The notes beneath the pieces were generated by a model that did no database searches, had not been told where the DNA came from, and worked only from the letters and a program-made list of their open reading frames with translations. From Rugalucina vietnamica (taxonomy: Eukaryota; Mollusca; Bivalvia; Lucinida; Lucinidae), in the NCBI GenBank assembly GCA_964017185.1, contig OZ024872.1, forward strand, positions 45,036,188 through 45,100,187: DNA of 64,000 bases, in the 5' to 3' direction. Positions 31,901 through 61,647 of the stretch are shown piece by piece (within the stretch, counting starts at the first letter, position 1; each line of letters opens with the position of its first letter). The position numbers and the translations under genes were made by a program.

Positions 31901-34900
31901 CACAGCATTAAGCTTACAAAGTTTTGAACAACTGGGCCTAGGCTGTAAAACCAAAACCAGAGGACCAATGGTCCTGTAAACGCTCACCTGAGTCTGCTGC
32001 ATATACCAATAAACATGTTTGAATATTATGGTATTTAACCTCAGTGCAGGGGCAGATGAAGCCCTTGGGCCGTTTTCTTTTTTTCAGAATAATCAATATT
32101 CTGTCCATTTGCCAATTTCTTGCTGGCTTTTCCCTTCAAATGACATTTTAACAGTTTTTCCCATTCAAATGCATGGGCAACCCATGTTGACCTTGCCATA
32201 AACTTGGTCAAGGTCATCACAGGGTCATGATTTATATATACATTGTAGTACTATAGCCATGGATGCTTCACGCCAAGTTTCATTGAAGTCAATATATTGG
32301 TTTCAGAGAAGAAGATATTTGAAGGGTTTTTACCATATATGGGCATTGCGGCCATCTTGGTCATGTGACCTAGATTATTAATATATACATTGGGTCCCCC
32401 ATCCTATAGATGCTTCACATAAAATTTGGCTTCAATTGGCCAAGTGGTTTTAGAGGAGAAGATGTTTGAATATTATGGTAATATACATGTATATTGCCTC
32501 CGGGTGTGGGCATATGAGCCCTTAGGTCCATTTTTTTCAGAATCATTAATATTTAGTCCTACTACCCATTTCCTGCAAGATTTTCACCTCAAATGACTTT
32601 TTAAAAGTTTTCCCAATTCCAATGCATTGGCGACCTATGTTGACCTTGTCTTAAAATAGGTCAAGGTCACCACAGGGTCATAATTTATATACACATTGTA
32701 GTACTTCAGCCATTGGTGCTTCATGCCAAGTTTCTTTGAAATCGATCCACCAGATTCGGAGAAGATTTTTGAAGGGTTTTTACCTTATATGGGTATGGCA
32801 GCCATCTTGGTCCTGTGAACTAGATAATTTATATATACATTAATTCCCCATTCCATAGATGCTTCACATAAAATTTGGCTTTGATTCGCCAAGCGGTTTC
32901 AGAAGAGAAGATGTTTGAATATTATGGTAATATACATGTATATTGCCCCGGGGTGGGGGCAAATGAGCCCCTGGGGTCCATTTTTTTTCAGAATCATTAA
33001 TATTCAGTCTTACTGCCCATTTCCTGCAAGACTTTCACTTTAAATGACATTTTAAAAGTTTTCCCTATTCAAATGCATTGGCGACCTATGTTGACCTTGC
33101 CGTAAAAAAGGTCAAGGTCATTACAGGGTCATGATTTATATACACATTGTAGTACTTGAGCCATTCATGCTTCATGCCAAGTTTCTTTGAATTCGATCCA
33201 CCGGTTCTGTAGAAGAAGATTTTTGAAGGGTTTTTACCATATATGGGCATTGCGGCCATCTTGGTCATGTGACCTGGATTATTTATATATACATTGATAA
33301 CCCCTTCCTATTGATGCTTCACATAAAATTTGGCTTTGATTGGCCAAGCGGTTTCAGAGGAGATGATGTTTAAATATTATGGTAATATACATGTATATTG
33401 CCCCGGGGTGGGGGCATATGAGCCCCTGGGGTCCAATTTTTTTTCAGAATCATTAATATTCAGTCCTACTGCCCATTTCCTGCAAGACTTTCACTTTAAA
33501 TGACATTTTAAAAGTTTTCCCCATTCAAATGCATTGGCGACCTATGTTGACCTTGCCGTAAAATAGGTCAAGGTCATCACAGGGTCATGATTTATATATA
33601 CATTGTAGTGCTTGAGCCATCAATGCTTCATGCCAAGTTTCGTTGAAATCAGTCCACCGGTTCTGGAGAAGAAGATTTTTGAAGGGTTTTTACCATATAT
33701 GGGCATGGCGGCCATCTTGGTCATGTGACCTGGATTTCTTATATATAAATTGGTTCCCCCTTCCTATAAATGCTTCATATAAAATTTGGCTTTGGTTGGC
33801 CAAGCGGTTTCAGAGAAGAAGATCTTTGAAATTGTGGACGGACGGAAGGACGGACGGACGACGGACGGACGACGGACGGACGGACGCCAGATCATGGCCA
33901 TCCTATAAGCTCACCTTGTGAGCCTAACAGCTCAGGTGAGCTAACCAGATGCTCAGGCCATGGGCCATGGAGCTCCCCTGAGTTATCTGCTATAGCTTAG
34001 CGGAAATTTTATGGCCACCCTGCTATCAAATCAAGTGATTTGGATGAAAAATCATAAGAAGAGTAGAGGACTATTTGATAAACATTTGTGCATAAACAAA
34101 ATTCAATGAAAAAAGTGCAGTACAGGATGAATTAATAAAGACAAACCACCCAAAAAAATTTTCACCAGTCCATAAAACTTACTTGGTGAGAGGATAAAAA
34201 TAAGCGGTGTCTTGGCAGTTGACTCCTCATAGATTTCCTTGAGGTCAAATGACCCCGTAGACAGGTATTTCTCCCCCATTCTGTCCCTCACAAACTGGTT
34301 ACAGGAGGATGTCAGAACATCAGGACGTAGTATCTTGATGAGGATCAATCTCTGGAACTGCGTCAGTTTCTCCCAGGCCAGGGTAATTCCGTGATCAGTA
34401 GTATGGCTCTCTTCTTGTTTGGCTTTAAACAAAATATAGAATTCAATATGCAAGTTACATGTACATAAACAATAGTGTATAACAATATTTAAAGGTATAT
34501 GTATTTGTAATCTTTGCTCAAGTCAAGAATTTTCTGCACCGTCTGCTTCCCTCAATTTATGGCATACAAATCTTTTCTTTTAAAATTTATTTAGCAATTT
34601 GTTCCAAGCTACAAACATTTAATTGCAATAAATCAAAGTTTTGTCTTTGTTGTCTTTGGAAGAGTTTTAATAACTTGTAAAATACAGTGATGTAAAATAT
34701 AGTACATGTAGGTATAGAATACTGTGTACCTGGCGAAAAAATACAGTGTAGTATTAAAACATTGGGTAAAAGGATGGAAAAAAGAAATTATCATTTGTGT
34801 TAAGCAGGAACATAAAATCTCAACCCTTGGGTCCACAAAGCAGGAAATGTGGATGTGGGGTTGAGATTTGCAAGTTTTCACTAAAAACCACAAAAGAATT

Positions 34901-37900
34901 CTATTTATCTTGTACAGATAACTTACTCAGCTCCACTTTACTAGGATCAAACTCTCTTTGCATCTCATCATAGGGATTTTCTAACTTCTCAAACATCTTC
35001 CACTGTTTGTAGTTACTGACGATACTGCGACACAGGCTCCCAAACTCTGGCATTGTGGCGTCAAGATGTTGGCACTGCCGCCACATAGATTCTGTGATCC
35101 AACGGGGTGGGGATTTGTGCTTCGCTGAGGATTTGTCACCAGCCTGTGCCTGAGACTCAAGTCGTTCCATGGGAGATAAACCTGGTAACAAAATTTTGTA
35201 TCATTTCACTTATTGTTTTAAAAAGCTAATATGTAATATCTCTTTGATTATGCCATGTTATATCTTACTTCTTGCACAAAATTATTCAAGGTCCAGCTTC
35301 AACTTAGTGAAAAATTTACAACAATAACAAATAAACAAATTATTTATAACATCATATTTGCTGATGCACATAAAAATTCACATTTTTACTAATTATAGAA
35401 ACATTAGCTAGAATCTCTGAACATTTATTACTACATGTATGTATAAACAAAATTCTGTCTCAAACATTTACAAACAGTTTACATCATAGTTTTATGTCTT
35501 AGTTTGCAGAACACTTACCATCGTGTTCAGCCAATTGTTTCTCGTCCATCATATTAGCCAGTATATTACCCTGCAGGAACACCTGCCATTCGTACTGTGG
35601 TATAGCACCCACGTCAGCAATGTCCTCATACGTAGCATTGGCCTTCATGATACTCGACGTCAACATAAAGGAGAACGTCAGTTGGTGACGGGCAAACAGA
35701 GCTACTGATACCACACGGTAGATACTGAATGTCAACCTGAAGAAAAGAAATTTGGACACTTTTGACTTGCTAGTATGGAAAGAATATTAATAGAAACTTT
35801 TTCTACAACTAATAAACAAGGTGTAATTTACTTTAACATTAATGTTAAAGCTAGTGTGTTCCTGTTGGAGAAATGAATTTTATTTCAGTTTCCTCATAAA
35901 TGCAAATACATGTATGGCCATATGTTTCTAAGTGAATCATTCTTGCTAACAAAAGACAAACACAGAATCGAACCACTAAAGTGTCAGTTGTGCATGATTT
36001 TACACATTTTGAATAATAAATGCAAAACTAGTAGAAGTAATAGTAGAAAGTGGCAGTTTTTCGTCATACCGGGCGGAATGGACTTAATCCATGATTCCAC
36101 CACAAGGACGAAATAAATGCAAAAGCATTTTTCATGCCTTTTATATAACAGTCCATACTTATTCCATAAATGAGCAACGTCATGGGAAAACCAACAATCT
36201 GCATAGGCGAAAACAAAGGCGCAGATCAGCTTTGCATTAACTGCGAAGCTGATCATGCCTTTGTTTTCGCTACATGGATAGTATAATTCCTCTTCTTCCT
36301 TAACCCGAAATTTCAAGCTTCTAGCCTTTTTCTTTGACTGCACAGACCGGTTTTCTCACGAGAGGCCTCAAATGATTATCCTTAAAACATTCCTACATAC
36401 CTGTTAATCATGTCTAACATATGTCTCTTCAGCTGGACTGGGTCACTCGTGTCAGGCCTCAATGGTTCATCTAGAGAAATAGATGGTCTACTAGTCCTTC
36501 TACCCATCATCTTTTCATCCCCAGACTTACGTAACGACCCTTCCCTGTCATGAGCCGGGAGTAGCCTTCCTCCCTGTAGACTGGACCGTCTGATTGCCCC
36601 GCTAGAGGTTACTGATCGCTGTCTCTGTCGTTCCTTGAGTGTGGTTGCACCGCTGATGGTTGCAGTGAACATATCTTGGAACCAGTCCAAAGAGAACTGG
36701 TACATCACATCTATACCAGCTAGGTCAGCCAAGACAAAGTATAGAGTTGCTCCCCTTGTTGCAACCTGAAGGTAAGAGTTAAGCTATAGTGTCAGAAAAC
36801 CCTGTTTTAACTTTATGAACACAAAAAGCACCAGATCAGTCTGCACATCGGCATAGTCTGATGTGCTCATTGGTGAACTTCTGTACAATATTATTCATCA
36901 ATTTTTAACAAATCTTTCATCTTCATTTAGATGACAATAATATATTAATGTTTTAAGGGTTCAAAACCCAAGGCAGTAGCATGCAATAACAATCTGAAGA
37001 AATATTCTCAAAATGCTGTTTCTCAAAATCATCATGCTATTAGGAAGTTCTCAGAAGAGCTCTGTGCAGTTAAAGAGAAAGGAATAAAGATACAAACCGG
37101 TAGAAATCTTTTCCTGGCAAGGCTGAGTCTTTTCTCTGCATCCTCAGACTGAGCAATTCTCTCGTAGATCTCTTTAGCCATTCCTTTACTCTGTTGTAGT
37201 GTCTCAACAAGGTCTTGATCATCCAAGATACCTATTGAATAGAGAGAGGAGGTAAAACTCGCGTTAAGTCCTAATGCTTTACCAAATTTCATTTTTAAGG
37301 TTACCGTAAATGCTTTATTTACACCTCCCAAAAAATAGTGCAGACTGATCTGTGATCTGCCTGGTAGTCAAGACTCTAGCCTTTGCTTTTATATGGTTTT
37401 CCTTCCATTCTTTCCAAATTTGCACCCAAAATATACACCTTTATACTCCACACTATGCAACATCCATTTTACATTTTCCGTAAGTTCACATATTTAGCTT
37501 AACTTTGAGCTGTTTCACTACATACCCTCTGATTTCTGTAACAATCCCAATGATTTATCTTCTAGGTCTCTCAGGAACTGTAAATCTGTGGCAATGCTCT
37601 CCAGTAGCTCAGATCGCTGGTTCTCAAGCTGGGGCCTCTCCTACAAAGCAAGATGGTTAAAGTCATGATCAAAGTTGTTTGTTTGAATTTGTTTGAACTG
37701 ATGCTTAACACCCAAATCAACAGCAATGGATATTACATCATTTGTAACCATGGTTCTTAAAGCTGGTTTGACTTTTTAAGGATGTTCGCTGCCAATGAAA
37801 AAGTATTCAAACTTTTTTTCTAACCACTCTTTTTTGATTCCAAAATACAACACAAGACATTTGAAAACAAAATTAATATAGGGTAGTGTGCATTTTTTCA

Positions 37901-39523: not shown

Positions 39524-39589
39524 CTGAAAATGAAATAGCAGACATGGTAACCTACATGTGATGAATGGACTTACACATCTTTATCAATT

Positions 39590-39824
39590 GAGCCGCGACG
39601 CAAGAAAACCGGTCTTCGGGGTTTCCGACCAGGTCCGACACAAACCGGCCTGTGCAGCAACAGAAGATGGCTTGAAGCTTGAAATTTCGGATTTAGGAAG
39701 AAGAGGAATTGTACTATCCGTGTAGCGAAAACAAAGGCGCTGATCAGCTTCGCAGTTACTGCGAAGCTGATCTGCGCCTTTGTTTTCGCATAGGCAAAAA
39801 TCCGGTTTTCTCATGACAAGGCTC
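39590..39824. mobile_element. Palindromic MITE family A
   Basis: GAGCCGCGACGCAAG...AAGGCTC, with AATT/AATC flanks. Centre CTTCGCAGTTACTGCGAAG is intact. It lies 64 bases upstream of the acceptor of the first visible dynein exon. Confidence 0.8.
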
Positions 39825-40532: not shown

Positions 40533-41956
40533 CTAGAATTTGTTTTCTATGTGAAAACTGATGTCTCCCCCCTTTCTAAGTGCATGTCCAAAATATGCAA
40601 GCAAGAGTTATAGTTCTTGTGCATCACCTATCCTGTCACTCTGTTTTATAAGTGTACCAAGTTTCATTGAAATATCTCTTACGGTTTTCAAGTTATAGAG
40701 GGGGCACGAAAGTGTTTGGAAAATAATCAAAGGGAAATAACTCTAAAGATATGAAAGCAAGAGTAATGATTCTTGTGCATCATGCTTTATAAGTGTACCA
40801 TGTTTCATTGAAAAATCTCTAATGGTTTTTGAGTTATAGAGCAGACAAAAAATTGAATGAAAAATAATCAAAGGGAAATAACTCCAAAGATATGCAAGCA
40901 AGAGTTATGGTTCTTTAGCATGACACATCATCTCATCGTGCTTTATAAGTGTACCAAGTTTCATTGAAATATTTCTTATGGTTTTCAAATTATAGAGTGG
41001 ACATGAAATTGTATGGAAAAATAATCAAAGGGAAATAACTCCAAAGATATGAAAGCAAGAGTTATAATTCTTGTGCATGACACATCGTCTCATCATGCTT
41101 TATAAGTGTACCAAGTTTCACTGAAATTTCTCTTACGGTTTTCAAGTTATAGGGTGGACACAAATTGTATGGAAAATAATCAAAGGGAAATTACTCCAAA
41201 GATATGCAAGCAAGACTTATGGTTCTTTAGCACGACACGTAATCTCATCGTGCTTTATAAGTGTACCAAGTTTCATTGAAATAACTCTTACGATTTTCGA
41301 GTTATAAAGCGGACACAAAATTGTATGGAAAATAATCAAAGGGAAATAACTCATAAAATACTCAAGCCAGAGTTATGGTTCTTGTGCACGACACATCGTC
41401 TGATCATGCTCAATATATGTACCAAGTTTTATTGAAAAATCTTAAACGGTTTTCAAGTTATACAGCGGACACGAAATTGTATCGAAAATAATCAAAGGGA
41501 AATAACTCCAAAAATACTCAAGCCAGAGTTATGGTTCTTGTGCATGACACATTGTCTCGTCATGGTCTACAAGTGTACCAAGTTTCATTGAAAAATCCTT
41601 AACGGTTTTCAAGTTATACAGCGGACACGAAATTGTATCGAAAATAATCAAAGGGAAATAACTCCAAAAATACTCAAGCTAGAGTTATGGTTCTTGTGCA
41701 TGACACATCGTCTCGTCGTGGTCTACAAGTGTACCAAGTTTCATTGAAAAATCTTTAATGGTTTTCAAGTTATACAGCGGACACGAAATTGTATCGAAAA
41801 TAATTAAAGGGAAATAACTCCAAAAATACTCAAGCTAGAGTTATGGTTCTTGTGCATGACACATCGTCTCATCGTGGTTTACAAGTGTACCAAGTTTCAT
41901 TGAAAAATCTTTAACGGTTTTCAAGTTATAGAGCGGACACGATTTGTGACGGACAG

Positions 41957-41987
<31 letters not shown>

Positions 41988-42037
41988 CACGGGGAAAAAC
42001 AATATGTCTCCCGACCCTGTCGGGGGGAGACATAAAA
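40533..42037 (-). mobile_element. Helitron/pearl-like element, family E
   Basis: CTAG at the left (3' end on the minus strand), inserted in the SINE tail. A left motif ATGTCTCCCCC is answered by GGGGGGAGACAT at the right. The core is about nine units of about 145 bp (AATAATCAAAGGGAAATAAC, GTGTACCAAGTTTCATTGAA). Then (GACA/GACG)n at 41950-41985 and a hairpin CTCCCGACCCTGTCGGGGGG. Confidence 0.82.
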
Positions 42038-42048
42038 ATATAAATGAA

Positions 42049-43360
42049 CTAGAAATTGGCTGCAAGCAAGGCTTTCAGTATACCCCCCGCAAAATTATCT
42101 GAAGCTGGCCAATAACTTCCTAAGTCAAACATGCAGAAAATTTGTCAAAGATATCTTTTCAGCATTATAATCCTTCATGTACATCCTCAGTATGCCAGTC
42201 ACATCTACAAGATATTAAAAGAATATATTGAAAGCTTGAAGTTGATTTCACTGTATGCACTATGATCATTGTTTATCATGAGAAATGGTAAAAAATTGGC
42301 TAAGTTAAATAAAAGCTGTAAATTTGTCAAAAATTAACTTTTCAGCATGAAAATTATTCATGCACATCTAAAATATATCTGGAACAAACCTACAAAGAAT
42401 TTAAAAGAAACACTGAAAGCCCTAGGAGGAGTTGATTTCACAAAGTAATGAAAGTATGCACTACCAACCATTATTGTATATAAGCAATGGTCAAGAAATG
42501 GCTATGTTGAAAAATGATGTTAATTTGTCCAAAATCACTTTTTTCAGTATTATAATTATTCATGCACATTTTCATTATGTGTGGAACATGTCTGCAAAGT
42601 ATTGAAAAGAAATACTGAAAGCCCTTGGAGGAGTTGATTTCACTGAAGTATGCACTACCAACCATTATTGTATACAGTCAATCGTCAAAAATGAGTATGT
42701 TAAAAAAAGCTGTACATTTGTCAAAAATTATTTTTTCATCATTATAATTCTTCATGCACATCTTCAATATGTGTGGAACATGTCTGCAAAGTATTGAAAA
42801 GAAATACTGAAAGCCCTAGGAGGAGTTGATTTCACAAAATATGCACTACCAACCACAAGCGATGGTCAAAAAATGGCTATGTTAAAAATTGCTGTAAATT
42901 TGTCAAAAATTATTTTTTCAGCATTATAATTCTTCATGCACATCTTCAATATGTGTGGAACATGTCTACAAAGTATTGAAAAGAAATACTGAAAGCCCTA
43001 GGAGGAGTTGATTTCACAAACTATGAACAACCAACCATTATTGTATATAAGCAACGGTCAAAAAATGGCTAAGTTAAAAAATGCTGTAAATTTGTCAAAA
43101 AATATTTTTTCAGCTTTATAATTCTTCATGCACATCTTCAATATGTGTGGAACATGTCTGCAAAGTATTGAAAAGAAATACTGAAAGCCCTGGGAGGAGT
43201 TGATTTCACAAACTATGCACTACCAACCATTATTGAATATGGCAATTATCGAAAATTGGCTAAGTTCAAAATGCTGTAAATTTGTCAAAATTCATTTTTT
43301 CAGCATACTACTTCTTCATGCACATCTTCAATATGTGTGGAACATGTCTGCAAAGTATCA
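42049..43360 (-). mobile_element. Helitron/pearl-like element, family F copy 1 (truncated)
   Basis: Starts CTAGAAATTGGCTGCAAGCA, with left motif GTATACCCCCCGC. Six or seven core units of about 180-205 bp (TCTTCATGCACATCTTCAAT, GGAGGAGTTGATTTCAC). The microsatellite and terminal hairpin are missing at the right. Confidence 0.78.
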
Positions 43361-43410
43361 AAAGAGCTTCACCCTCACCAGTCTTCACAAAAAGTGCCAG
43401 TCTGTCAGTC

Positions 43411-43582
43411 AAAACCAGCAAAATTCATTCTGTCTGACAAAATACTTCATTCTGTCAGACAAATGTCCAGCAAAAATTATCAAAATTACAATGATCAAAA
43501 CCAGCAAAATTCATTCTGTCTGACAAAATACTTCATTCTGTCAGACAAATGTCCAGCAAAAATTATCAAAATTACAATGATA
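43411..43582. repeat. Two tandem 86-bp units
   Basis: AAAACCAGCAAAATTCATTC...CAAAATTACAATGAT repeated almost exactly. Each unit itself contains the inverted pair CATTCTGTCTGACA / CATTCTGTCAGACA. Short peptide frames here are by-products. Confidence 0.85.
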
Positions 43583-44269
43583 ACATAACAGAACTGTCCT
43601 ACAAAATTGGGGGTTGTCCTGCGAATAAAATTGCAGTTTGCCAGCCAGCTGTCCTGCAGCTGAAAAACAGATTTCGCGAAGACTGTATCACCATATAAGT
43701 TGGACATGACATTGACCTATAGGATACATGAGTCAGGATCTCTATTTCCTATCAATGTCACTCTTACCTACTTTGTCCCTTGTATCTATCTTAGTTTTAT
43801 CTACATCCTACCGCTATATCATTACAGATACAATATACCGACTAGGCCAGATATAATTTTCCACCTAGGTGTTACCAAAGAGCAGAGACCTGCCATTTAA
43901 TTCATATGGCAATTACCTTTTAAATCATTATTTTTCATTGATTATTATATAGAAGTGAATCAAAAGATTATTTTCAGTTTTGTTTTTGTCATCAAAATTA
44001 AATATGATGATAAAAAGACAATATGGCCATTGACCCTGGTTTCACCATGCATAAGACTATTTCAAAGTTAAAACCACATTCATGTATCTTGATGTGAGTG
44101 GCTGTGCCACAAAACCATGGCAGTGGAGTCCACAGAAGACTCAAGGCCAACCTGGGAAATAGAGCAACCTTTTTGCATTAAGAAAGCTTCCATAATCCAG
44201 TCTTTATAAAAGTATTTTCAATATTGAACAAATCAAATTTTACGAAAGAATCATTTCAGGACTTTTTAA

Positions 44270-44655
44270 CAATCAAATTACATTACAAATTAAATCACAT
44301 TACATTACAGGACTTCTTTATGATTAAGAGAAAGAGCCATTCCATGAAAAATAATCATTAAATGAATTCTTTAAGTCAAATTGCATGAACAAATCATTAC
44401 AAGAATTTCTATATCAAATTGCATGAATTCTTTCCTATCAAATTATGTAACAAGACTTCTTTACAATCCAATTACATAACTGGACTTCCTTACAAACCAA
44501 TTCCATGAAAGAATCATTACAAGACTTCTTTACAATCAAATTACATATAATTATAAGACACAAGACTTCTTTACAATCAAATTACATATAATTATAAGAC
44601 ATCATTACAATCCAACAACATAATTATATTACTTTTTTTACAATCCAATTACATA
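44270..44655. repeat. Degenerate minisatellite, GACTTCTTTACAATC type
   Basis: Irregular units of GACTTCTTTACAATCAAATT and ACATATAATTA. The array resumes at 49146-49220 and 50433-50620, so the elements between are insertions into it. Confidence 0.8.
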
Positions 44656-44864: not shown

Positions 44865-47800
44865 CCAGCGGACCAATGGTCCTGTAAACGCTCACCTGAA
44901 ACCCGAGATATATACCAATAAACTTGTTTGACTAGAATGGTGATGTACATGTATATAACCCCAGGGCCAGGTCAGAGCAACCCCTGGAGTCAATTTCTCT
45001 TTGAAAACATAAAACTTCAGTCCATTTGCCAATTTACTGCAAGTTTTGCCCTTCAAATGACATTTCAACAATTTTCCCCATTCAAACGCATGGGCGACCT
45101 AAGTTGACCTTGCCGTAAAATAGGTCAAGGTCATCCAAGGGTCACGATTTATATATACTTTGTAGAGCTCCATTGCCTGATGCTTCATGCCAAGTTTCAA
45201 AATCATAGGCCTTCTGGTTCTGGAGAAGAAGATTTTTAAAGGTTTTTGCTATTTATAGCCATGGCAGCCATCTTGGTCATGTGACCTTGACCATTTATAT
45301 ACACTTTCATTCCCACTTCCTAACAATTCTCCTCATAAAGTTTGGCTTTGATTGGCCAAGCAGTTTCAGAAAAGAAGATCTTTGAATATCACTGTAATAT
45401 ACATGTATACAAGCGGTTTCAGGGGAGAAGATGTTTCATTATTATGGAAATGTACATGTATATAGCCCCAACCCCCCAGGGGCTAAAATTTTCCATTAAC
45501 ATTAATCTTCTGTCCATTTGCCTATTCCCAGTAAGTTTTACCCATTAAATAGCATTTTACCATTTTTTCCCATTCAAATGCATTGGCGACCATTGACCTT
45601 GCCGTAAAATAGGTCAAGGTCATCCTAGGGTCATGATTTATATAAACTAGAAATTGGCTGCAAGCAAGGCTTTCAGTATACCCCCCGCAAAATTATCTAA
45701 GGCCAATAACTTCCTTTAAGTCAAACATGCAAAACATTTGTCAAAAATATCTTTTCAGCATTATAATCCTTCATGAAAATCCTCCGTATGTCTGACTCAT
45801 GTCTGTAAGGTATTAAATAATATACTGAAAGCTCAGGGAGTAAAATTGTTGTTGATTTCACTGTACACTGTTGATCATTATTTATCATGAGAAATGGTCA
45901 AAAATTGGCTATGCTAAAAAAAAGCTGTAAATTTGTCAAAAATAAATTATTCAGCATAAGAATTATTCATGCACATCTGAAATATATCTGGAACAAGTGT
46001 GCAAAGAATTCGAATGAAACAATGAAAGCACTAGGAGGACTTGATTTCATAAAGTATGCACTACCAGCCGTATTGTATATTAGCGATGGTTGAAAAATGT
46101 CTAAGTTGAAAAATGCTGTAAATTTGTCAAAAATTATTTTTTCACCAATAAAATTCTTTATGCACATCTTCAATATGTCTGTAACATGTCTGCAAAGTAT
46201 TGAAAAGAATTACTGAAAGCCCCAGGAGGAGTTGGATTTCACAAAGTATGTACTATCAACCATAATTGAATATAAGCAGAAATGGTCAAAATTGGCTAAG
46301 TTTAAAAAGCTGTAAATTTGTCAAAACTAAAATTTTCAGCATAAAAATTCTTCATGCACATCTTCAATATATCTGGAACAAATCTGCAAAGAATTAAAAA
46401 GAAACAATGAAAGCCCTAGGAGGAGTTGATTTCACAAAGTATGCACTTCCAACCATTATTGTATGTAAGCAATAGTCAAAAAATGGCTAAGTTAAAAAAT
46501 GCTGTAAATTTGTCAAAAATGATTTTTTCAGCATTATAATTCTTCATGCACATCTTCAATATGTCTGTAACATGTCTGCAAAGTACTGAAAAGAAATACT
46601 GAAAGCCCTAGGAGGAGTTGATTTCACAAAGTATGTATGTAAGCAATAGTCGAAAAATGCCAAAATTAAAAAATGCTGTAAATTTGTCAAAAATTATTTT
46701 TTCAGCATTATAATTCTTCATGCACATCTTCAATATGTCTATAACATGTCTGCAAAGTACTGAAAAGAAATACTGAAAGCCCTAGGAGGAGTTGATTTCA
46801 CAAAGTATGTATGTAAGCAATAGTCGAAAAATGGCAAAGTTAAAAAATGCTGTAAATTTGTCAAAAATTATTTTTTCAGCATTATAATTCTTCATGCACA
46901 TCTTCAATATGTCTGTAACATGTCTGCAAAGTACTGAAAAGAAACAATGAAAGCCCTAGGAGGAGTTGATTTCACAAAGTATGCACTTCCAACCATTATT
47001 GTATGTAAGCAATAGTCGAAAAATGGCTAAGTTAAAAAATGCTGTAAATTTGTCAAAAACTATTTTTTCAGCATTATAATTCTTCATGCACATCTTCAAT
47101 ATGTCTGTAACATGTCTGCAAAGTACTGAAAAGAAATACTGAAAGCCCTAGGAGGAGTTGATTTCACAAAGTATGTATGTAAGCAATAGTCGAAAAATGC
47201 CAAAGTTAAAAAATGCTGTAAATTTGTCAAAAATTATTTTTTCAGCATTATAATTCTTCATGCACATCTTCAATATGTCTATAACATGTCTGCAAAGTAC
47301 TGAAAAGAAATACTGAAAGCCCTAGGAGGAGTTGATTTCACAAAGTATGTATGTAAGCAATAGTCGAAAAATGGCAAAGTTAAAAAATGCTGTAAATTTG
47401 TCAAAAATTATTTTTTCAGCATTATAATTCTTCATGCACATCTTCAATATGTCTGTAACATGTCTGCAAAGTACTGAAAAGAAACACTGAAAGCCCTAGG
47501 AGGAGTTGATTTCACAAAGTATGCACTACCAACCATTATTGAATATAAGCAATTATAGAAAATTTGCTAAGTTAAAAATGCTGTAAATTTGTCAAAAATG
47601 ATTTTTTCAGCATGACAATTGTTCATGCACATCTGCAATATATCTGAAACATATCAGCAAAATATTAAAAGGAAACATTGAAAGCTGTAAGAGGAGTTGA
47701 TTTCACAAAGTATGTACTTTCAGTACTATGGCAAACATGTTATAGGAAGACTTAAAAAGTCCCATAACTCTTGCAATACTGACCCTTTGGCCCCTAAATT

Positions 47801-48349
47801 CATACCACACATGTATTGTCTGATGGTGCAAGTGTGGTGAAAATTTGAAACAAATCAGGCAAAAGCTACTAAAGTTATTCAGCAAAGATGTCCAAATGTT
47901 GACGGAATGACGGAATCACGGAGTCACGGAATCACAGAATGACGGAATGACGGAATGACGGAATGACGGACAGGCTGAAAACAGTATACCCCCCTAAAAC
48001 TTCGTTTTGCGGGGGGTATAATTATGATGGGCCCAAGTCCCCGATGCTACATACCAAGTTTCGTGGAAATCGGCCCACTGGTTCTGGACAAGAAGATTTT
48101 TAAAGGTTTTTGCTATTTATAGCCATGGCTGCCATCTTGGTCATGTGACCTGGACCATTTATATAAACTTTCGTTCCCCCTTCCTAAGGATGCTCCACAT
48201 GAAGTTTGGCTTTGATTGGCCAAGCGGTTTCAGAGGAGAAGATCTTTGAAATTGTGAACGACGGACGACGGACGGACGACGGACGGACGGACGCCGGAGC
48301 ATGGGTATACTATAAGCTCACCTGTGAGCCTTCGGCTCAGGTGAGCTAA
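44865..48349 (-). mobile_element. Helitron/pearl-like element, family D copy 2
   Basis: Starts CCAGCGGACCAATGGTCCT (CTGG on the minus strand) and ends GGCTCAGGTGAGCTAA. Core text as in D1, diverged; (GACG)n at about 48257-48293. It is interrupted by family F copy 2 at 45647-48021, after which its own text continues at ATGATGGGCCC. Confidence 0.82.
45647..48021 (-). mobile_element. Helitron/pearl-like element, family F copy 2 (complete)
   Basis: CTAGAAATTGGCTGCAAGCA at the left, about eleven core units of about 160-210 bp, a 10-bp array of ACGGAATGAC at 47903-47970, and the hairpin CCCCCCTAAAACTTCGTTTT / GCGGGGGG before TATAA. Family D copy 3 at about 61340 shows the uninterrupted version of the target site. 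Confidence 0.85.
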
Positions 48350-49220
48350 AAAGTCTTTAAGTAATAAACATAATTTCTGACTGTTTGCTCATCACCAGAA
48401 AAGCATGGAATCGTCTTGTAATATTTCAATAACATGACATTGCTTCCTGAAAATTTTAAATCAATTGGATGTTCCACAAAGAAGTTATGGTCCTTTATTA
48501 CGAGGGTTGTATTGGGAAACCATGAGACTGTGTCGTTGCGTTGCAAAAGATTATGAACTTCTATATTTTCAACATAAAACACATACACAGAAACACTTAA
48601 GATGGTAAAATAAACTAGAAAAGTATGAATAATATAGTTCAGCATTTATGTGCAAATGATTTGTATGTTTTAAGAGTGGAATAAAAGCATCTGATGGCAA
48701 TTTTAGAAGTAACCAACCGGCAGTGGAATTGTGTTCCATTAAGAATTGCGAAAAATTGGATGATTCAACAGAGAATATTTGCATAATAAACTCAGGGAGA
48801 TGTATCACCACATACTGATACTCCATGGTTACGAAAACTTATAACAAAAGAATGGACAAACACATTAAATGCATAGATATTGTTGGTGTTTATGCTAAGA
48901 AAGTGTGATCATTGCCAATGGGATTAAAATAAAGTTTGACCTTTTCGCAAAGTCATTTTGACTTTGGCGTGCTCCGGGTACCCATACATCACCTTTTTGT
49001 AGAGAACATATTTTTATTATGTCTTTGTGCAATATCTTGGTTTTCACAGCATTTATAGAGGACATGGATAAGTTTCTTTTTGTTTTACTATGAATATAAG
49101 TTGAATGGTCAAACAATTATTTGAACTTTCCGAATGCCCCTCTTACATATAATTATAGGACTTCTTTACAATCCAATTACATATAATAACAGGACTTATT
49201 TACAATCCAATTACATATAA

Positions 49221-50432
49221 CTAGAAATGCATGTTTGTAAAACACTATGCCCCCAACTGTATGCTTGTCCCTAAACTGGCAGCTTGTATAATTCATTTAT
49301 TTCATTTGAATGAAGTGAAATTTAATTTCCTAAAGAAGCTGTTCGGTTGCCTCTGTTTTTGACCTCGATCCAGAAACAGAGTGTAAGCTTTTTGCATACA
49401 AGTTAGAAATGGAGTAAAAATTTCAAAATGGGAGTTATTTTGTCAAAATATGACGGAAAGTTCTCAAAAGTTAATCAGGGGATCTTCTTTTCAGCCCCAG
49501 CCAGTATACCAAATATGAAGGCTCTAGCTTAAATACTTTTTCAGATATCTTGCACACAAGATTTTCAAAGTTTGTTTTGAAAGAGGCATAACTCCAAAAA
49601 GGCGCATTACTTGAACATGAAAAAAAAAATACGGGTCAACTATTTTTTTCATGAGGAATTTGTATATAAAATTTCAAAACCCTAACATTCACCGTTCAAA
49701 AGTTTCAAATTTCACCGAAAAGTGGAAAAATTAATCAAAATTTCAAAATTCCATTTTTTTGTCAAAATTTGACAGAAAGTTCTCAAAAGTTAATCAGGTC
49801 ATCTACTCATCAGCCCCAACCAGTAAACCAAATATGAAGGCTCTAGCTTAAATACTTTTCGAGATATCTTGCACACAATATTTTCAAATTTTGTTTTCAA
49901 AGGGACATAACTCAGAAGAGGGGCATAACTTGGACATGAAAAAAAATACGGGTCAACTATTTTTTCATGAGGAATCTGTATATGAAATTTCAAAACCCTA
50001 GCATTCACTGTTCAAAAGTTTCAAATTTCACTGAAAAGAGGAAAAATTCGTCAAAATTTCAAAATTCCGTATTTTTGTCAAAATTTGACGAAAAGTTCTC
50101 AAAAGTTGATCAGGTCATCTACTCATCAGCCCCAACCAGTATACCAAATATGAAGGCTCTAGCTTAAATACTTTTTGAGATATCTTGCACACAAGATTTT
50201 CAAATTATGTTTTCAAAGGGAAATAACTCAGAAAAGGGGCATAACTCGGACAAGAAAAAAAATACGGGTCAACTATTTTTTCATGAGGAATACACATATG
50301 AAATTTCAAATCCCTAGCATTCACCATTCAAAAGTTAACAGACGTACACACGCACACACAGACAGACAGACAGACAGACAAGCCGAAAGCAATTTTATGC
50401 CCTTCCAACTTTTTCAAAGTTGGGGGGCATAA
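49221..50432 (-). mobile_element. Helitron/pearl-like element, family G
   Basis: CTAGAAATGCATGTTTGTAA at the left with ATGCCCCC, three core units of about 290-300 bp (CAGCCCCAACCAGTATACCA, ACGGGTCAACTATTTTTTCA), (GACA)n at about 50360-50380, then hairpin CCAACTTTTTCAAAGTTGG and GGGGCATAA. Inserted in the minisatellite between ACATATAA and TTACAGG, with no target duplication if the ends are CTAG and TTAT. Confidence 0.82.
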
Positions 50433-50640
50433 TTACAGGACTTATTTAAAACCCAATTACATATAATTACAGGACTTCATTACAATCCAATTACATAAAA
50501 TTACAGGACTTCTTTCCTCTACAATTACATAAAATTATATGACTTCTTTACAATCCTATTACATATAATTATAAGACGTCTTGACAATCGAATTACATCA
50601 AATAATTTTACAGGACTTCTTTATACAGTATTAATATCTC
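50433..50640. repeat. Continuation of the GACTTC minisatellite
   Basis: AATTACATATAATTACAGGA and GACTTCTTTACAATC units, the same array as 44270-44655. Confidence 0.75.
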
Positions 50641-53540: not shown

Positions 53541-54688
53541 ACATCAGGAAAACTGTTTATGTCCTTGTAATGTATACCCCTTCAACCCCACTTTTGTATA
53601 GAAAAACTGGGGTATGGAGGGGTTTACCTATTTTTTCTTATTTTTGTTCCAAAACATAGATTGTGCCGAGGCGGTTCTAACGTGTACCCACAATCAATGT
53701 TTTGAGCAAAAATAACAAAAAAATATCAAAAATTTTCAGCTGAAAATGTTCAATTTTTGAAGCTGAAAAAATCTTGGTATATTGCATTGGCAAGTTTTCA
53801 TAATGACATAGCCCTAAGTTTGTGTAATCTGATACATGAGCCCGGGTACATGAGCCATGACAGACTCTTCCAAATCATTACGAAAACACGCCCATGTAAT
53901 ACACTGATTTTTCCAAAGTTGTAAAAATTGAAAATTTTCAGTGGAAATTTTTTATATTTTACTTATTTTTGCTCAAAACAAAGATAGTGGGTACAAGTTT
54001 GAACCGCCTCACTTACCCCTGCATACCCCAGTTTTACTATACTGGTCAAAATAAGTTAGGGATAAAACGTTTAAGGATGCATTTTTGGGCCAATCGATAG
54101 TTAATCACTTATTCATTTATATGGTGGATTAGCACTTTTACTGCACTTTCATATGCCACCAATTTTGAAATTGTACATCATCTGACTTAAGCACAGCTGT
54201 TCTTTAAACCACACTACCCTAAAAACAAAGTGATAAAAAGTCCATAATAACCGATGCCACAACAAAAATCAATTTTGCCAATTCATAAAAATTTAGCGAA
54301 TTTGCATGATAGTCATTAAGATTCATCATTTCTAAGGTCAGTCAGCTAAAAACGATTGGAAATTTCTAGCCATTTTAAAAGTTTTTCACAAACAAACTTA
54401 CACCCCATCAATTCTCTATGGGAATTTCATACCACTTTCATTTTATGGGTAGTCTGACTTAAAGCCTGGTCTTGTTGAATGCAATGACTATTGTTTCGAT
54501 CCTAACATGTACAAAGCTTACAAAATGAATTACCTTGATGATAGAAATGTTTCATATTACCAGCAGTTCGAAATCTTGTAGAAATTGTGCGTTAAAAGTT
54601 TGATCCTTAACTTTATTTGTCCAGTATATATAACAATGGGGCATAAGGGGTATACATTACACAGACACATTTTACTGATGATTGTGTA
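53541..54688. mobile_element. Palindromic MITE family B with a nested Tc1-like element
   Basis: Mirrored text: TGTAATGTATACCCC at the left and GGGGTATACATTACA at the right, and inside them AAAACTGGGGTATGGAGGGG / CCCTGCATACCCCAGTTTT. Net length about 560 bp after removing 54042-54624. Fragments occur at 6284, 7110, 9290, 13438, 15289 and 59473. Confidence 0.78.
54042..54624. mobile_element. 583-bp Tc1-like nonautonomous element
   Basis: CTGGTCAAAATAAGTTAGGG at the left and ATCCTTAACTTTATTTGTCC at the right, with TA at 54040-54041 and 54625-54626. The uninterrupted family B text at about 59485-59515 shows the empty site. No transposase. Confidence 0.85.
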
Positions 54689-55107: not shown

Positions 55108-55323
55108 GAGCCACCTCATGGGAAAACCAACAATCTGCATAGGCGAAAAAAAGACGCAGATCAGCTTCGCGGTAACCGCGAAGCTGATCAGCGCCTTTGT
55201 TTTCGCTACTCGGATAGTACAATTCCTCTTCTACTTAAATCCGAAATTTCAAGCTTCTAGCTCTTTTCTGTGCTTGTACAGGCTGGTTTGTGTTGGACAT
55301 GTTCTGAAACCACGAGGTGGCTC
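55108..55323. mobile_element. Palindromic MITE family A
   Basis: GAGCCACCTCATGGG...GTGGCTC with AAAT at 55104-55107 and 55324-55327. Centre CTTCGCGGTAACCGCGAAG is perfect. Confidence 0.85.
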
Positions 55324-55584: not shown

Positions 55585-55778
55585 GAGCCGCCTCATGACA
55601 AAACCAACAATCTGCATATGTAACCGCGAAGCTGATGAGCGTCTTTGTTTTTGCAACACGGATAGTACAGTTCCTCTTCTTCTTAAATCCGAAATTTCAA
55701 GCTTCTAGCCTGCTTCTGTGACCGTACAGCCTGATTTGTGTCAGACCTGTTCGGAAACCACATTGTTGGTTTTCCCAT
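55585..55778. mobile_element. MITE family A, internally deleted
   Basis: GAGCCGCCTCATGAC start; the first palindrome arm is deleted; the right end stops at TTGGTTTTCCCAT. Confidence 0.7.
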
Positions 55779-56084
55779 ACTAAAATTGATACATAAACAT
55801 GAGGGCTGATTCAAAATTGTTTTCACACTCATTGCTAGAGCTGCATTAAAAATCTAAGCCAATGTTTTAAAAAAAAACACTAGATTAACAAAAAATCAAC
55901 AGGCTTATCAATATCAACTGAGCCAAGTTAGAATGGCCTTATATCAAAAGAGGAATTTATTCTGTGCAGACAAAAAATGCCTAGACCTGCAGATGATTAA
56001 ATCTAGATAAAAAGCTTTTAATATTGAGATTTTTACAGTGAACTGTATCAATAAATTTTTTAACAGCCCAGCTGTAACACATAT

Positions 56085-56251
56085 GAGCCACCCCATTGGA
56101 AAACTAACAATCTGCGTAGGCGAAAACAAAGGCGCAGATCAGCTTCCTAAATCCAAAATTTCAAGTTCTAGCTTGCTTCTGTGACAGTACAACCCGATTT
56201 GTGTCAGACCTGTTCGGAAACCACATTGTTGGTTTTCCCACGAGGGGGCTC
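56085..56251. mobile_element. MITE family A, internally deleted
   Basis: GAGCCACCCC start and GGGGGCTC end; the second palindrome arm and following text are missing. Flanks ATAT and AATT differ. Confidence 0.7.
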
Positions 56252-56564
56252 AATTATATAGCAGGTTCTTGGATTCTATAATTATACTGCCAATCTATGG
56301 TGAAGCATTTGCATAATCATAATCAATGACTTTAATGCAATAACCTATACGATTTTTATAATCCTATTTAATTCATATAAAATTTTGAATAAGATTTTCT
56401 GACTATTGACATTGCTCCGCAGGTTGTATATGAATTGTGTCACTTCTTTCTTACAGCTTGAATAGCCTTATATTTGGAAGACTTCACCAAAATAACTCTT
56501 CCTTTTGAAAAGAACCATCTTGGCATAACCATGAGATATCTTGCATGATTATACATAACATTGG

Positions 56565-58383
56565 ATGCTGCAAAATCTAAGGAATATGATGCCTTCAACA
56601 AAATCAGGTTCTATGACGGATATATCAACACTGAGTTCTGTGATAAAAAATGTTACCCATATCACAACATCAACGGAAGAGGATAGCCAGTATTTATTCA
56701 AAACTTTGAATGGCTACCAAGTAACGGCAGGAACTTTCATTTTCAATTTATCTGTGATCACACTCGGAATATGGATAATCGTGTTAAACTGTCTTCTAAT
56801 ACAAACGCTGGTGAAATACCGTGCCTACTTAGAAGTTACCGACATTTTTATACATAATTTAGCAGCAACGGACGCTACTACAGGACTGCTATTGATCTAT
56901 AACTCTACCTATAACATTCTGAATTTCCAAAATCGTTATGAATGTCTTATCAGATTTGGCCTCATACAGTCCATGTCTCTGTGTTCAAATGGCTTCATAG
57001 CAATGTTGACTATCAACCGCTACATTATGGTCAGCCGACCTTTCAGTTACAGAAAAATATTTAAGAAAAAATTCATGGTAACTTCATCTGTATTCACATG
57101 GTGCTTGTCATTAGCTGTTGGATTTATGCCTTTAGTTGGTTGGAATCAAGAACTAGCCCCACAGCAAGAGGACAATGGTAGCCTTACGGTTTGCCGATTT
57201 TTTGGTGTGATGGACCCTGGTTACGTATGGCTGAATGTGGGGCTTTACTGGCTTCCAGTGTTTCTAATGCTTGTGCTATATACACACATGTCCAAAATAG
57301 CTTGCAACCACGCCAAAGCGATCAAAGCTAATGAAAGGGCCATCACAAACAAGGAAGAGAAAGCATTTGACAGACATTCCTGGAAGCTCACTAAAACTGT
57401 TTCCATCGTCATTGGGGTGTATTTATTCTGCTGGATGCCTACAGGTGGGTTGGGTATTCATATTTCAATGATTAATTTAATTTCTAATTTCGACATGGTG
57501 AAAGAAATTGCACCATATTATAAACTACAATCATCTATCCACAAACAGGATTCTAATGAAGACACATCCTAATTAAGATTTAAAGATAACCATTCCTACA
57601 AACTTTCAGCAACTTCATTCTAATTCTGGAAAATATCCTTTAGCTATATATATGATACAAATTTAGAAATCAAACATGGCTTAACTTTGTAGACTGGAAG
57701 TTGATTGAGCCATATCATGACAAAACCAATCTTTTGCACATGCAAACACAAAGACGCAGATCAGTTTGAGGTAACCACAAAGCTGCTCAGTGCCTTTGTT
57801 TCCCAATAGGTATAGTAAAATCCTTCTACTTTTTAAATCCAAAATTTCCAGCCTCTAGCTGTCTTCTGTGGCTGTACAGCCCGGTTCGTGTTAGACCTGG
57901 TCAGAAACCACACACAATGCTGGTTTTCTGATATCACAATCATTATTCATTTAACATTTACAATTCATTTCCAACTGATTCATTGTAATTCTTGGCTAGA
58001 TACAATGCTGTTTACATTAAAGTGACTTTGCTGTCTATTTTTCAGGGCTCTATTTGATGCTTCAGCTCAGCGGCTCCATCTACGAATACTCTCTAACTCA
58101 AAAGGGGGAAATACTCATGTACGTCTCCAGTGTTGGGTTTCTGAACTCACTAATGAACCCCTTAATTTACGCTACAAAAATTTCCGTGGTTAAAAGGAGA
58201 TTTAAGAGGATATTCTGTTGTTCCAAAGAAAGACGCCAATCATTACACAGACTTAGTCTTAGCACTCTTACTATATCTTCTATATTCAAAAGTCGAAGCT
58301 CTTTGAGCCTGCACAGACCTTCACAAGGCAGTATACATAGCCAGACACCTTCCCCTGAGGTGGAAACAAAGCCAATCTCTTAA
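56565..58383 (+). CDS. Rhodopsin-family G protein-coupled receptor (two exons)
   Basis: CDS joins 56565-57444 and 58046-58383 (405 aa). Intron is GT (GTGGGT) to AG (TTTTTCAG), phase 1. An extracellular N-terminus with a possible glycosylation site NVT precedes seven predicted membrane helices. Class A marks: Asn in TM1 (VLNCLLIQ), Asp in TM2 (LAATD), the DRY variant NRY near residue 151, Trp in TM4, CWMP near 289-292 in TM6, NPLIY near 331-335 in TM7, then a CC pair for palmitoylation. Cys before TM3 (YECLIRFG) and in loop 2 (TVCRFFG) can pair. PLVGWN after TM4 recalls adenosine/S1P-type receptors, but the ligand is unknown. ATGs at 56586 and 56613 are alternative starts. It is a paralogue of the receptor at 63313. 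Confidence 0.9.
57717..57945. mobile_element. MITE family A inside the GPCR intron
   Basis: GAGCCATATCATGACAAAAC start and CGTGTTAGACCTGGTCAGAA near the right. Diverged centre. Occupies about 40% of the 601-bp intron. Confidence 0.7.
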
Positions 58384-58445
58384 ACGACTGCGATAAAAAT
58401 ATTTGTTTACTTCATTATTTCTTTCTTTTTTTTGTAATAACATAT

Positions 58446-58654
58446 GAGCCGCGACGCGAGAAAACCGGTCTTCGGGGTTTCCGACCAGGTCTGACACAAA
58501 CCAAGCTGTACAAGCATTTGGATTTAGAAAGAAGAGGAATTGTACTATCCGTGTAGCGAAAACAATGGCGCTGAACAGCTTCGCAGTTACTGCAAAGCTG
58601 ATCTGCACTATTGTTTTCGCCTCGGCAAAATCCGGTTTTCTCACGACGCGGCTC
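58446..58654. mobile_element. Palindromic MITE family A
   Basis: GAGCCGCGACGCGAG...GACGCGGCTC with ATAT at 58442-58445 and 58655-58658. It starts 63 bases after the GPCR stop codon, so it is probably within the 3' UTR. Confidence 0.85.
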
Positions 58655-58658
58655 ATAT

Positions 58659-59113
58659 CATTGCATTAAAGAAGCGTCAAATGCAATAAATTCCACAAAC
58701 AGTACAGTACAGGGGGATTTTCACCAGCCCGCCCACCCCCGTGGAGAGGGTGCTGCAAGAAAAAGGATTACAATTTTAATATCCACCGCGGAAACGCCCT
58801 AGTCAGCGGGATTGCGGAGTTTCCGCGGCGGGGTAAAGAAGTAGAACTTTCCACCGCGGACCCGTGGTGGAATGAGGATGAATAAGGAAAGTGGGCGGGG
58901 CTTGTTTCCAATTTATTGTAATGCATACTTGTACTTAGACCCGAGTTTAAATCTAATTCGATTATTATTTTTGTTTCATGTATCTTAATTAAAAATACAT
59001 GTTTTACGATCATAAAGTGTAAATGCATTTCTGTCACGAAAATCCCAGATTCTGCATGGTTGTAGAATCACTTCAGTGAAAGATATAAGATATGGTACGA
59101 CGCACACACACAC

Positions 59114-59180
<67 letters not shown>

Positions 59181-59686
59181 ATTATCTAGAATTCAGCTCT
59201 CTTTTTTGTCATTTATCCTAAGTCCTTTTCATCTTTGATAGACAAAAGAAGTTTCGGCAAATTGTAATTGGGCAGTTGGTCCTTTACTCTACTGATTGGC
59301 TTGTATAATGTTTCACCCTTAGGAGCAATTAAAATTTATAATTAAGCCGGTCCATCTGTTTACCTGTCAATCATTATGACATCATTACTTTTCATTGGAA
59401 ATCCTCCGCAAACCCGCGGTGGAATTATACAGGTAACGGGAGGATCCTCCGTTAAAAAATAAGAAAAATTGATATACCCCTGCGTACCCCAGTTTTGCTA
59501 TATAAAAGTGGGATATAAGGGGGTATACGTTACACGGACATGTTTTCCTGATGTCTTGTTCAAGGCTTTGAGCTCTAGACCTAAACTAAAAAAAGTTGGA
59601 ATGCAGTTTATCTGCTAAGATTTCCAACTGTTGGGCCCAAACTAGTGCTTTCCCAAAACAGATTTCCAACAGTATCATGTTATTAA
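58659..59686. other. Intergenic DNA between GPCR and element D3
   Basis: Contains CCGCGG-rich text (58780-58870, GGAATTATAC...CCGCGGTGG recurring at 59405-59455), an (AG)n run at 59123-59175 and a family B fragment at 59473-59545. No gene seen. Confidence 0.5.
59123..59176. repeat. (AG)n microsatellite
   Basis: Uninterrupted GAGAGA run of about 54 bases. Confidence 0.95.
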
Positions 59687-61647
59687 CCAGAGGACCAATG
59701 GTCCTATAAACACTCACCTGAGACATCAGATATATACCAATAAACTTGTTTGACTAGAATGGTAATATACATGTATATAACCCCAGGGCAGGGTCAGGGT
59801 AACCGCTGGAGTCAATTTCTTTAATAAATCATAAAGATTCAGTCATTTGCAAATTTACTGCAAGTTTTGCCCTTCAATTATTATGACATTATAACAATTT
59901 TCCCCATTCAAATGCTTAGGCAACCTAAGTTGACCTTGCCATAAAAAAGGTCAAGGTCATCCCAGGTTCATGATTAATATAAACTTTGAAGAGCTCCATT
60001 GCTTGATGCTTCATGCCAAGTTTCAAAATCATAGGCCTTCAGTACTGGAGAAGAAGATCTTTAAAGGTTTTTGCTATTTAAAGCCATGGAGGCCATCTTG
60101 GTCATGTGACCATGACCATTTATACAAACTTTCATTCACTCTTCATAAGAATGTTCCACATAAAGCTTGGCCTTGATTAGCCAAGCGGTTTCAGAGAAGA
60201 TGTTTCAATATTATGGTCATACACGTGTATATAGCCCCGGGGCAGGGGCAGACAACCCTCTGGGCCCAAAATATTTTCATTAACATAAATATTCTGTCCA
60301 TTTGCTCATTCCTAGCAAGTTTTTTGCCATTAAATGATATTTTTCTATTTTTTCCCATTCAAATGCATGGGCGGCCTAAGTTGACCTTGCCGTAAAAAAG
60401 GTCAAGGTCATCCCAGGGTCATGATTTATACAAACTTTGTAGAGCTCCATTGCCTGATGCTTCATGCCAAGTTTCAAAATCATAGGCCTTCTGGTTCTGA
60501 AGAAGAAGATTTTTAAGGGTTTTTGCTATTTATAGCCATGGCAGCCATCTTGGTCATGTGACTTTGACCATTTATACAAACTTTCATTCACTCTTCCTAA
60601 GAATGCTCCACATCAAGTTTGGGTTTGATTGGCCGAGCGGTTTCAGAGAAGAAGATCTTTGAATATCACTGTAATATACATGTATATTGCCCCGGGATGG
60701 GTCAGACAGACCCCTGGGGTCCAAATTTTTTCAGAATCATCAATCTTAAGTCCATTTGCCAATTTCCTGTAAGTTTTTCCCTACAAATGACATTTTAACA
60801 CTTTTCCCCATTCCCCATGCATGAGCGACCTATATTGACCTTGCCGTAAAATAGGTCAAGGTCATCCCAGGGTCATGATTTATATAAACTTTGTAGAGCT
60901 CCAGTCACTGATGCTTCACACCAAGTTTCAAAATCATAGGCCTTCTGGTTCTGGAGAAGAAGATTTAAAAAGGTTTGTTCTATTTATAGCCATGGCAGCC
61001 ATCTTGGTCAAGTGACCTTGACCATTTATATACGGTTTCTTTCCCCCTTCCCAAGGATGCTCCATATGAAGTTTTGCTTGATTGGCCAAGCGGTTTCAGG
61101 GGAGATGTTTCATTATTATGGAAATATACATGTATATAGTCCCGGGGCAGGGGCAGACAACCCCCTAGGGGCTAAAATTTTCCATTAACATTAATCTTCT
61201 GTCCATTTGCCTATTCCCAGTAAGTTTTACCCATTAAATAGCATTTTACCATTTTTTCCCATTCAAATGCATTGGCGACCTAAGTTGACCTTGCCGTAAA
61301 ATAGGTCAAGGTCATTCTAGGGTCATGATTTATATAAACTATGATGGGCCCGCGTCCCCGATGCTACATACCAAGTTTCAAAATCCTAGGCCTTCTGGTT
61401 CTGGAGAAGAAGATTTTTAAAGGTTTTTGCTATTTATAGCCATCTTGGTCAAGTGACCTGGACCATTTATATAAACTTTCATTCCCCCTTCCTAAGGATG
61501 CTCCATGTGAAGTTTGGCTTTAATCGGCTAAACGGTTACAGAGGAGAAGATCTTTGAAATTGTGGATCGACGACGACGGACGGACGGACAACGGAGCATG
61601 GCCATCCTATAAGCTCACCTTGTGAACCTTCGGCTCAGGTGAGCTAA
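59687..61647 (-). mobile_element. Helitron/pearl-like element, family D copy 3
   Basis: CCAGAGGACCAATGGTCCT at the left (CTGG on the minus strand), four core units of about 440-460 bp, (GACG)n at about 61568-61592, hairpin arms GCTCACCT and AGGTGAGC, ending CTAA. Confidence 0.85.

Follow-up and report, generated by a model that had tools for sequence, protein, structure and literature searches.

Four families of elements with tandem-repeat cores and one shared end grammar, probably rolling-circle transposons of the Helentron class, in a genomic stretch of the bivalve Rugalucina vietnamica

In the genome of the lucinid bivalve Rugalucina vietnamica, a stretch of 64,000 nucleotides (contig OZ024872.1, positions 45,036,188 to 45,100,187; hereafter the window, to which all copy counts refer and from whose first base coordinates are counted) harbours seven elements with central tandem repeats, which are very probably non-autonomous transposons of the rolling-circle type, belonging to the Helitron2/Helentron class and known as HINEs. 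All lie on one strand, and they fall into four families, D (D1, D2 and D3), E, F (F1 and F2) and G, each with its own pair of complementary arms and its own tandem core. Six of them are complete, while F1 is without its 5' half, only the left end and some of the core being preserved. The elements are read here on the minus strand, which is presumed to be the transferred one.

On this strand all six complete copies show the same order of modules, namely a terminal TTA, a 5' arm contained in a hairpin, a microsatellite of the GTCC/GTCT type, the tandem core, a 3' arm, a palindrome and a terminal CTGG or CTAG. The 3' terminus reads CTGG in D and CTAG in E, F and G, that is, CTRG in 7/7 copies, and TTA forms the 5' terminus of all six complete copies, this end being absent from F1; per position, CTRR has a background frequency of 0.012 and TTA one of 0.024. 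A preliminary description of this DNA had placed CTAG or CTGG (CCAG on the plus strand) at the left boundary, a GACG/GACA-type microsatellite within, and AA directly after the right-hand hairpin of the plus strand, and these are borne out in 7/7 copies, 6/6 complete copies and 6/6 copies, respectively. It had also pointed to a GC-rich motif about 35 bp inside the left boundary, complementary to the outer arm of the right-hand hairpin: the complementarity holds in all six copies having a right end, the distance being 25-30 bp. The arms, of which this motif is the 3' one, are thus placed asymmetrically, the 5' arm lying 1-4 nt from its terminus (1-2 nt in E, F2 and G, 3-4 nt in D1-D3) and the 3' arm 25-30 nt from the other in 6/6 copies. 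Between the 3' arm and the terminus all seven copies contain a palindrome, overlooked in the preliminary description and situated 4-15 nt from the end in the six complete copies. The 3' module of D1 occupies 31961..31992 (minus strand), with the 3' arm at 31982-31992 and the palindrome at 31961-31975, and the layout is the same in the other copies.

The two arms of an element match perfectly and without gaps over 9-16 bp in all six complete copies (10-11 bp in D, 12 in E, 16 in F2 and 9 in G, the last being longer with one gap), whereas the best match between families is 7 bp, and mononucleotide shuffles of the left end equal the within-family match in only 0-4 of 1000 cases. The predicted energies of arm pairing range from -13.5 to -21.3 kcal/mol within families as against -4.5 to -12.4 kcal/mol between them, and the best predicted partner of every 5' arm is the 3' arm from its own family. 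Because the arms are family-specific, what we observe is four families with one shared end grammar and not one constant-end cassette; the earlier proposal that cores had been swapped within constant ends is not supported here. The 5' TTAT, the 3' TTCTAG and the C-rich arms are common to E, F and G, with D differing, and on account of this similarity these three families may be distantly related. When the window was scanned for 9-bp arm words that have both a hairpin partner close by and a complement far away, the plus strand yielded 32 hits, including all six complete copies, whereas after shuffling (10 windows) the plus-strand count was 0 or 1 every time; the remaining plus-strand hits belong mainly to another dispersed palindromic repeat, and none of the 15 minus-strand hits corresponds to an element.

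The 5' hairpin is likewise built to one plan in all six complete copies, in which an interruption separates an outer stem of 8-10 bp from an inner one of 3-8 bp, the loop measuring 3-4 nt; for each copy its folding is matched by 0/300 mononucleotide shuffles. All hairpins being on the minus strand, stems of 8 and 6 bp are separated by a 3-nt bulge (0x3) both in D1 (33908..33942), where the loop is of 4 nt, and in D3 (61612..61645), where it is GAA; stems of 10 and 4 bp with a 2-nt bulge (0x2) and a GAA loop make up the hairpin of D2 (48315..48347), and stems of 10 and 3 bp with a 2-nt bulge (0x2) and a 4-nt loop that of E (42003..42034). F2 (47985..48020) has stems of 10 and 5 bp around a 2x1 internal loop, and G (50395..50432) has stems of 8 and 8 bp around a 1x2 internal loop, both with a GAA loop. 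The GAA triloop is therefore found on the presumed transferred strand in four of the six copies and three of the four families (D2, D3, F2 and G), D1 and E being the exceptions. As a control, the parts of the window not occupied by the elements were scanned every 5 bases on both strands at -9.5 kcal/mol or lower, which returned 62 strong hairpins, 27 of them with triloops, none of which was GAA; 15 of the 27 were TAA or TTA, and since several of these come from one dispersed repeat on both strands, the control is smaller than the figure of 27 suggests. In all these hairpin counts the D copies are non-independent, and those of E, F and G are possibly so too. The 5' hairpins of FoHeli1 and FoHeli2 of Fusarium are also printed with GAA loops (PMC5148889). 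Finally, the duplex between the 5' and 3' arms is predicted to be more stable than the hairpin in 6/6 copies, by 0.5 kcal/mol in G, 3.3 in D2, 3.8 in D3, 5.8 in D1, 6.0 in E and 9.2 in F2. Relative to the published anatomy of such elements, the interrupted stem, the GAA triloop and the stability of the arm duplex relative to the hairpin are new detail, which is not to say that they have been printed nowhere else.

The cores bounded by these ends are for the most part unlike one another. The periods given by Tandem Repeats Finder (TRF) are 456 and 454 bp in D1 and D3, 156 bp in E, 174-192 bp in F and 316 bp in G, so that the first estimates of 145 bp for E and 295 bp for G have to be revised; in D2 a D array is not reported by TRF, and two units are matched by a core pattern. 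When five core stretches were compared in 10 pairs against 200 dinucleotide shuffles, the pairs E-G, with 17 bp in exact agreement, and F-G, which is A/T-rich, scored above all 200, and D-E (3/200) and D-F (6/200) came near the shuffle limit; the dissimilarity of the cores asserted earlier is accordingly correct in the main and fails for E-G and F-G. The sequence TCAAAGGGAAATAACTC is exactly common to the otherwise unlike cores of E (41336-41358) and G (50213-50235). The microsatellite shows a pronounced strand preference throughout the window, GACRGACR occurring 23 times on the plus and 0 times on the minus strand and GACGGA 31 times and once, respectively, some of these occurrences lying outside the elements.

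Two insertion sites can be compared with an empty counterpart. F2 sits within D2, a nesting that had escaped the preliminary description, and this makes F2 the younger of the two; the empty counterpart is supplied by a paralogous part of D3 (61299-61378). The joined flanks of F2 match D3 at 76/80 positions with the break at CTAG/TTA, at 77/80 with the break one base over, and at 76/80 at three more break positions (-2, -1 and +2), whereas the match falls to at most 51/80 if only the right side is moved, by no more than 4 bases. G lies in a 34-bp minisatellite, and its joined flanks match adjacent minisatellite units, which partly overlap the flanks used, at 46/50 and 44/50 positions, and two more distant units at 40/50. 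The empty sites of F2 and G point to insertion without a shared target duplication, the exact break being ambiguous. The left boundary, earlier taken to be the CTRR 3' end of a minus-strand Helitron, is compatible with both empty sites in so far as these allow a break at CTAG, although F2 fits equally well, or better by one base pair, elsewhere within a stretch of five positions. Among the copies in the window no boundary was found elsewhere. CTRG is followed by T in 6/7 copies and by TT in 5/7, all six complete elements begin with TT, and an A|T junction is found in three of the six complete copies (D3, F2 and G). The minisatellite itself extends over 44220-44655 and 49140-50620, hosting G and having D2 with F2 between its two halves. 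A mariner-like host element of D2 between these halves was considered; it rests on an 11-bp inverted match of the ends and is not claimed.

This anatomy corresponds closely to that published for HINEs (PMC4067079), as we find subterminal inverted repeats at both ends, a 5' hairpin, a 3' palindrome, a microsatellite and central tandem repeats; the published subterminal inverted repeats measure 11-15 bp, and the microsatellite and tandem core are common, not obligatory. Insertion at TT without target duplication also belongs to the description of HINEs. A close likeness is that to the Cg_HINEs of the oyster Crassostrea gigas (PMC7492417), described as comprising a 5' subterminal inverted repeat, a complementary inverted repeat, a satellite-like array, a 3' subterminal inverted repeat and a palindrome, together with a microsatellite that is usually of 4 nt (GTCY and similar); their target sites are T-rich and not duplicated, some copies lie within other elements, and one genome contains several unrelated families. 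In the oyster 13 satellite clusters are distributed over 11 element types, and in Cg_HINE group 2 related ends and flanks accompany unrelated repeats, such that a swap of cores is already on record (PMC7492417). The elements described here differ in that the CTRG 3' end is explicit, the word CTAG being absent from the main text of PMC7492417, and in D units of about 455 bp as compared with 138-181 bp; the likeness is one of description, not of sequence. Likewise, the Pearl, CvA and DTC84 elements of bivalves, as described in PMC7492417 and PMC5139131, are modular with a tandem core, those of Pearl having central repeats of about 160 bp, and here too the comparison is by description and not by sequence. 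Further papers on the oyster satellitome, as well as a review, are available (PMC11136912, PMC8268682, PMC12628747, PMC5139131). The identification as elements of Helentron/Pearl type proposed in the preliminary description is hence supported both by the module order of the six complete copies and by the published oyster elements with the same modules.

With Helitron2, defined by asymmetric terminal inverted repeats (PMC3627910, PMC5148889), the elements share a 5' terminal T, a hairpin involving the 5' repeat and a 3' repeat that precedes a hairpin and lies some 20-30 nt from the 3' end (PMC3627910), the hairpin and the 3' position being found in 6/6 copies; the 5' repeat of Helitron2 is given as 0-2 bp from the 5' end (PMC3627910). 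Unlike ours, the Helitron2 elements include autonomous ones, FoHeli1 and FoHeli2 end in ATTTT and not in CTRG, and the descriptions at hand mention no satellite core. Also comparable is proto-Helentron-Pi of Phytophthora infestans, a TT...CTAG intermediate with a 5' TT, a 3' CTAG, insertion between A and T and no target duplication, which differs in being autonomous, about 14 kb long and described as Helitron-like in structure (PMC4067079). The joining of HINE modules to a TT...CTRG frame is a small extension of a known kind.

Several observations weigh against assignment to this class. The 3' arm, at 25-30 nt from the end, lies outside the 38-60 bp given for the 3' subterminal repeat of mite HINEs and closer to the Helitron2 position, and the D palindromes lie 4-5 nt from the end as compared with 8-35 bp in the mite elements (PMC4067079); moreover, the 3' palindromes are weak, with 3-85 of 300 mononucleotide shuffles folding equally well. 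No Rep/Helicase was found; the open reading frames of at least 90 aa inside or across the elements do not exceed 112 aa and were not compared with protein families. The break of F2 is unfixed and fits slightly better one base off CTAG/TTA, the flanks of G permit a 4-base repeat ATAA, such that single copies may have a target duplication, of at most 2 bp in F2 and at most 4 bp in G, and AACCAG spans both boundaries of D1, although not those of D2 and D3. The predicted margin of the arm duplex in G is only 0.5 kcal/mol, and the energies leave out of account what it costs to close a loop that is 1.2-3.5 kb long.

It could be argued that the elements are instead derivatives of canonical Helitron1 (TC...CTRR, inserted at A|T) carrying satellites, the subterminal repeats being incidental. 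The CTRG end of all seven copies and the A|T junction of three would agree with this, as would the Helitron-like sequences of C. gigas with a 3' CTAG, subterminal repeats being present in 257 of 751 intact ones (PMC7992393); the same source reads such sequences as possible intermediates and, of those it examined, only one is said to have a microsatellite. Yet the 5' end is TTA rather than TC in 6/6 copies, and in all six the hairpin is built on the 5' subterminal repeat, whereas Helitron1 as characterised in PMC3627910 is without such a hairpin, and we consider this derivation improbable. Still less credible is the older classification of Pearl elements as miniature inverted-repeat transposable elements (MITEs) or fold-back elements mobilised by a cut-and-paste transposase: the elements are indeed short, without long open reading frames and with inverted repeats close to both ends, and a short direct repeat is possible at the flanks of G and D1, but the inverted repeats are asymmetric (1-4 nt versus 25-30 nt from the ends) and, the D1 repeat being missing from D2 and D3, there is no duplication length common to the copies. 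That independent satellite arrays are flanked by hairpins by chance, in a window that does contain other hairpins and tandem arrays, can be practically dismissed given the rarity of the arm matches among shuffles, the recovery of all six complete copies by a scan that returns next to nothing on the plus strand of shuffled windows, and the two empty sites of F2 and G.

The HINE-like elements have the following positions in the window, all on the minus strand. D1 (31957..33944; 1988 bp) has its 5' end at 33944, CTGG at 31957-31960 and about 3.9 core units, each of 456 bp. E (40533..42035; 1503 bp), with about 7.5 units of 156 bp and a 3' CTAG, is followed after 13 bp by F1 (42049..43372), of which the CTAG 3' end and core are left and the right limit is approximate; two identical tandem copies of an 86-bp unit (43409-43581) adjoin the broken end. 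D2 (44865..48349) measures 3485 bp with the nested F2 counted, its 5' end being at 48349 and its CTGG at 44865-44868; F2 (45647..48021; 2375 bp) has a break uncertain by about 2 bases each way. G (49221..50432; 1212 bp) contains about 2.8 units of 316 bp. D3 (59687..61647) measures 1961 bp, and a 299-bp stretch including its 5' end is present in two tandem, 100% identical copies (61494-62094), which reflects either an artefact of assembly or a duplication of very recent date. Exact end patterns of D, F and G in viral contigs, and of D in prokaryote genome contigs, gave no matches, a result uninformative on abundance because these collections are viral and prokaryotic.

All seven copies point the same way, as previously stated, and a previously unlisted F-type relic at 4186..4360 (minus strand; 74% identical across 161 columns and then 86% across another 37, which extend into the hairpin arm) brings the count to 8/8. 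The chance of this under a fair coin, either way, is 0.008 by hand calculation, for a locus that was picked after the pattern had been seen. In C. gigas, by contrast, elements of this type are found in both orientations (PMC7492417). An orientation bias related to the replication fork is, in the one source found on the subject, reported for Tn7 and IS200/IS605 and not for Helitrons.

As to the surroundings, Pfam comparison of 10 translated pieces gave two matches to dynein heavy chain (minus strand), one to a rhodopsin-type G protein-coupled receptor, one to a reverse transcriptase (plus strand) and one below the curated cut-off, five being without a match. The reverse-transcriptase match (PF00078, E 4.4e-18) falls among long open reading frames at 16759-21249 (plus strand), where the frame that overlaps it downstream gave no Pfam match; this region may be a DIRS-like retroelement. 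A dispersed, palindromic, MITE-like repeat of the GATCAGCTTCGC type occurs in both orientations at 3615, 4592, 6132, 29308-30215, 36213-39775, 51968, 55157-55183, 58605 and 62458. Inverted-arm repeats of the GTATACCCC type, not HINE-like, are present at 53572-54660 and about 59471-59535; a candidate element on the opposite strand at 53570-54660 with these arms was rejected, as no GACR microsatellite was seen in it, TRF lists no array there, and it resembles the repeat near 59471.

If these are indeed elements of the Helitron2/Helentron class, a Rep/Helicase acting in trans would probably recognise the interrupted 5' hairpin beside the terminal TT and nick there, the strand would be displaced through the core, and transfer would stop at the 3' module of 3' arm, palindrome and CTRG. 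The single-stranded 3' arm would then pair with the 5' arm, opening the 5' hairpin, and the displaced strand would join a T-rich site without target duplication; the tandem cores would be cargo, changing in length by slippage or unequal exchange. The predicted greater stability of the arm duplex fits the published end-point model, in which the 5' hairpin is lost when the arms pair, and the end point of replication is thereby fixed (PMC3627910). We further put forward, as a speculation on balance doubtful, that the 5' hairpin with its outer stem of 8-10 bp, interruption, inner stem and GAA triloop might be a sequence-free switch across Helitron2/Helentron elements, in which the arms may drift as long as the 3' arm outcompetes the hairpin arm, the interruption permits invasion by the 3' arm after full displacement, and the 8/8 orientation could be the footprint of fork-directed insertion of single strands. 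Since the 3' arm would invade only once the whole element is displaced, completeness would be checked by strand exchange, and because the core would never be read, unrelated satellites could be carried. The REP transposase of E. coli, whose activity on its REP needs a hairpin bulge (PMC8266576), might offer a parallel to the interrupted stem, by analogy only.

The genomes of oysters and other bivalves contain many short dispersed satellite arrays, and in this lucinid four such arrays are, on the assignment favoured here, the cargo of transposons. Should the switch exist, an interrupted GAA hairpin, a better-pairing 3' arm and a CTRG end would make up a search rule independent of sequence similarity, and the recognition of its ends by a rolling-circle transposon would have a testable model.

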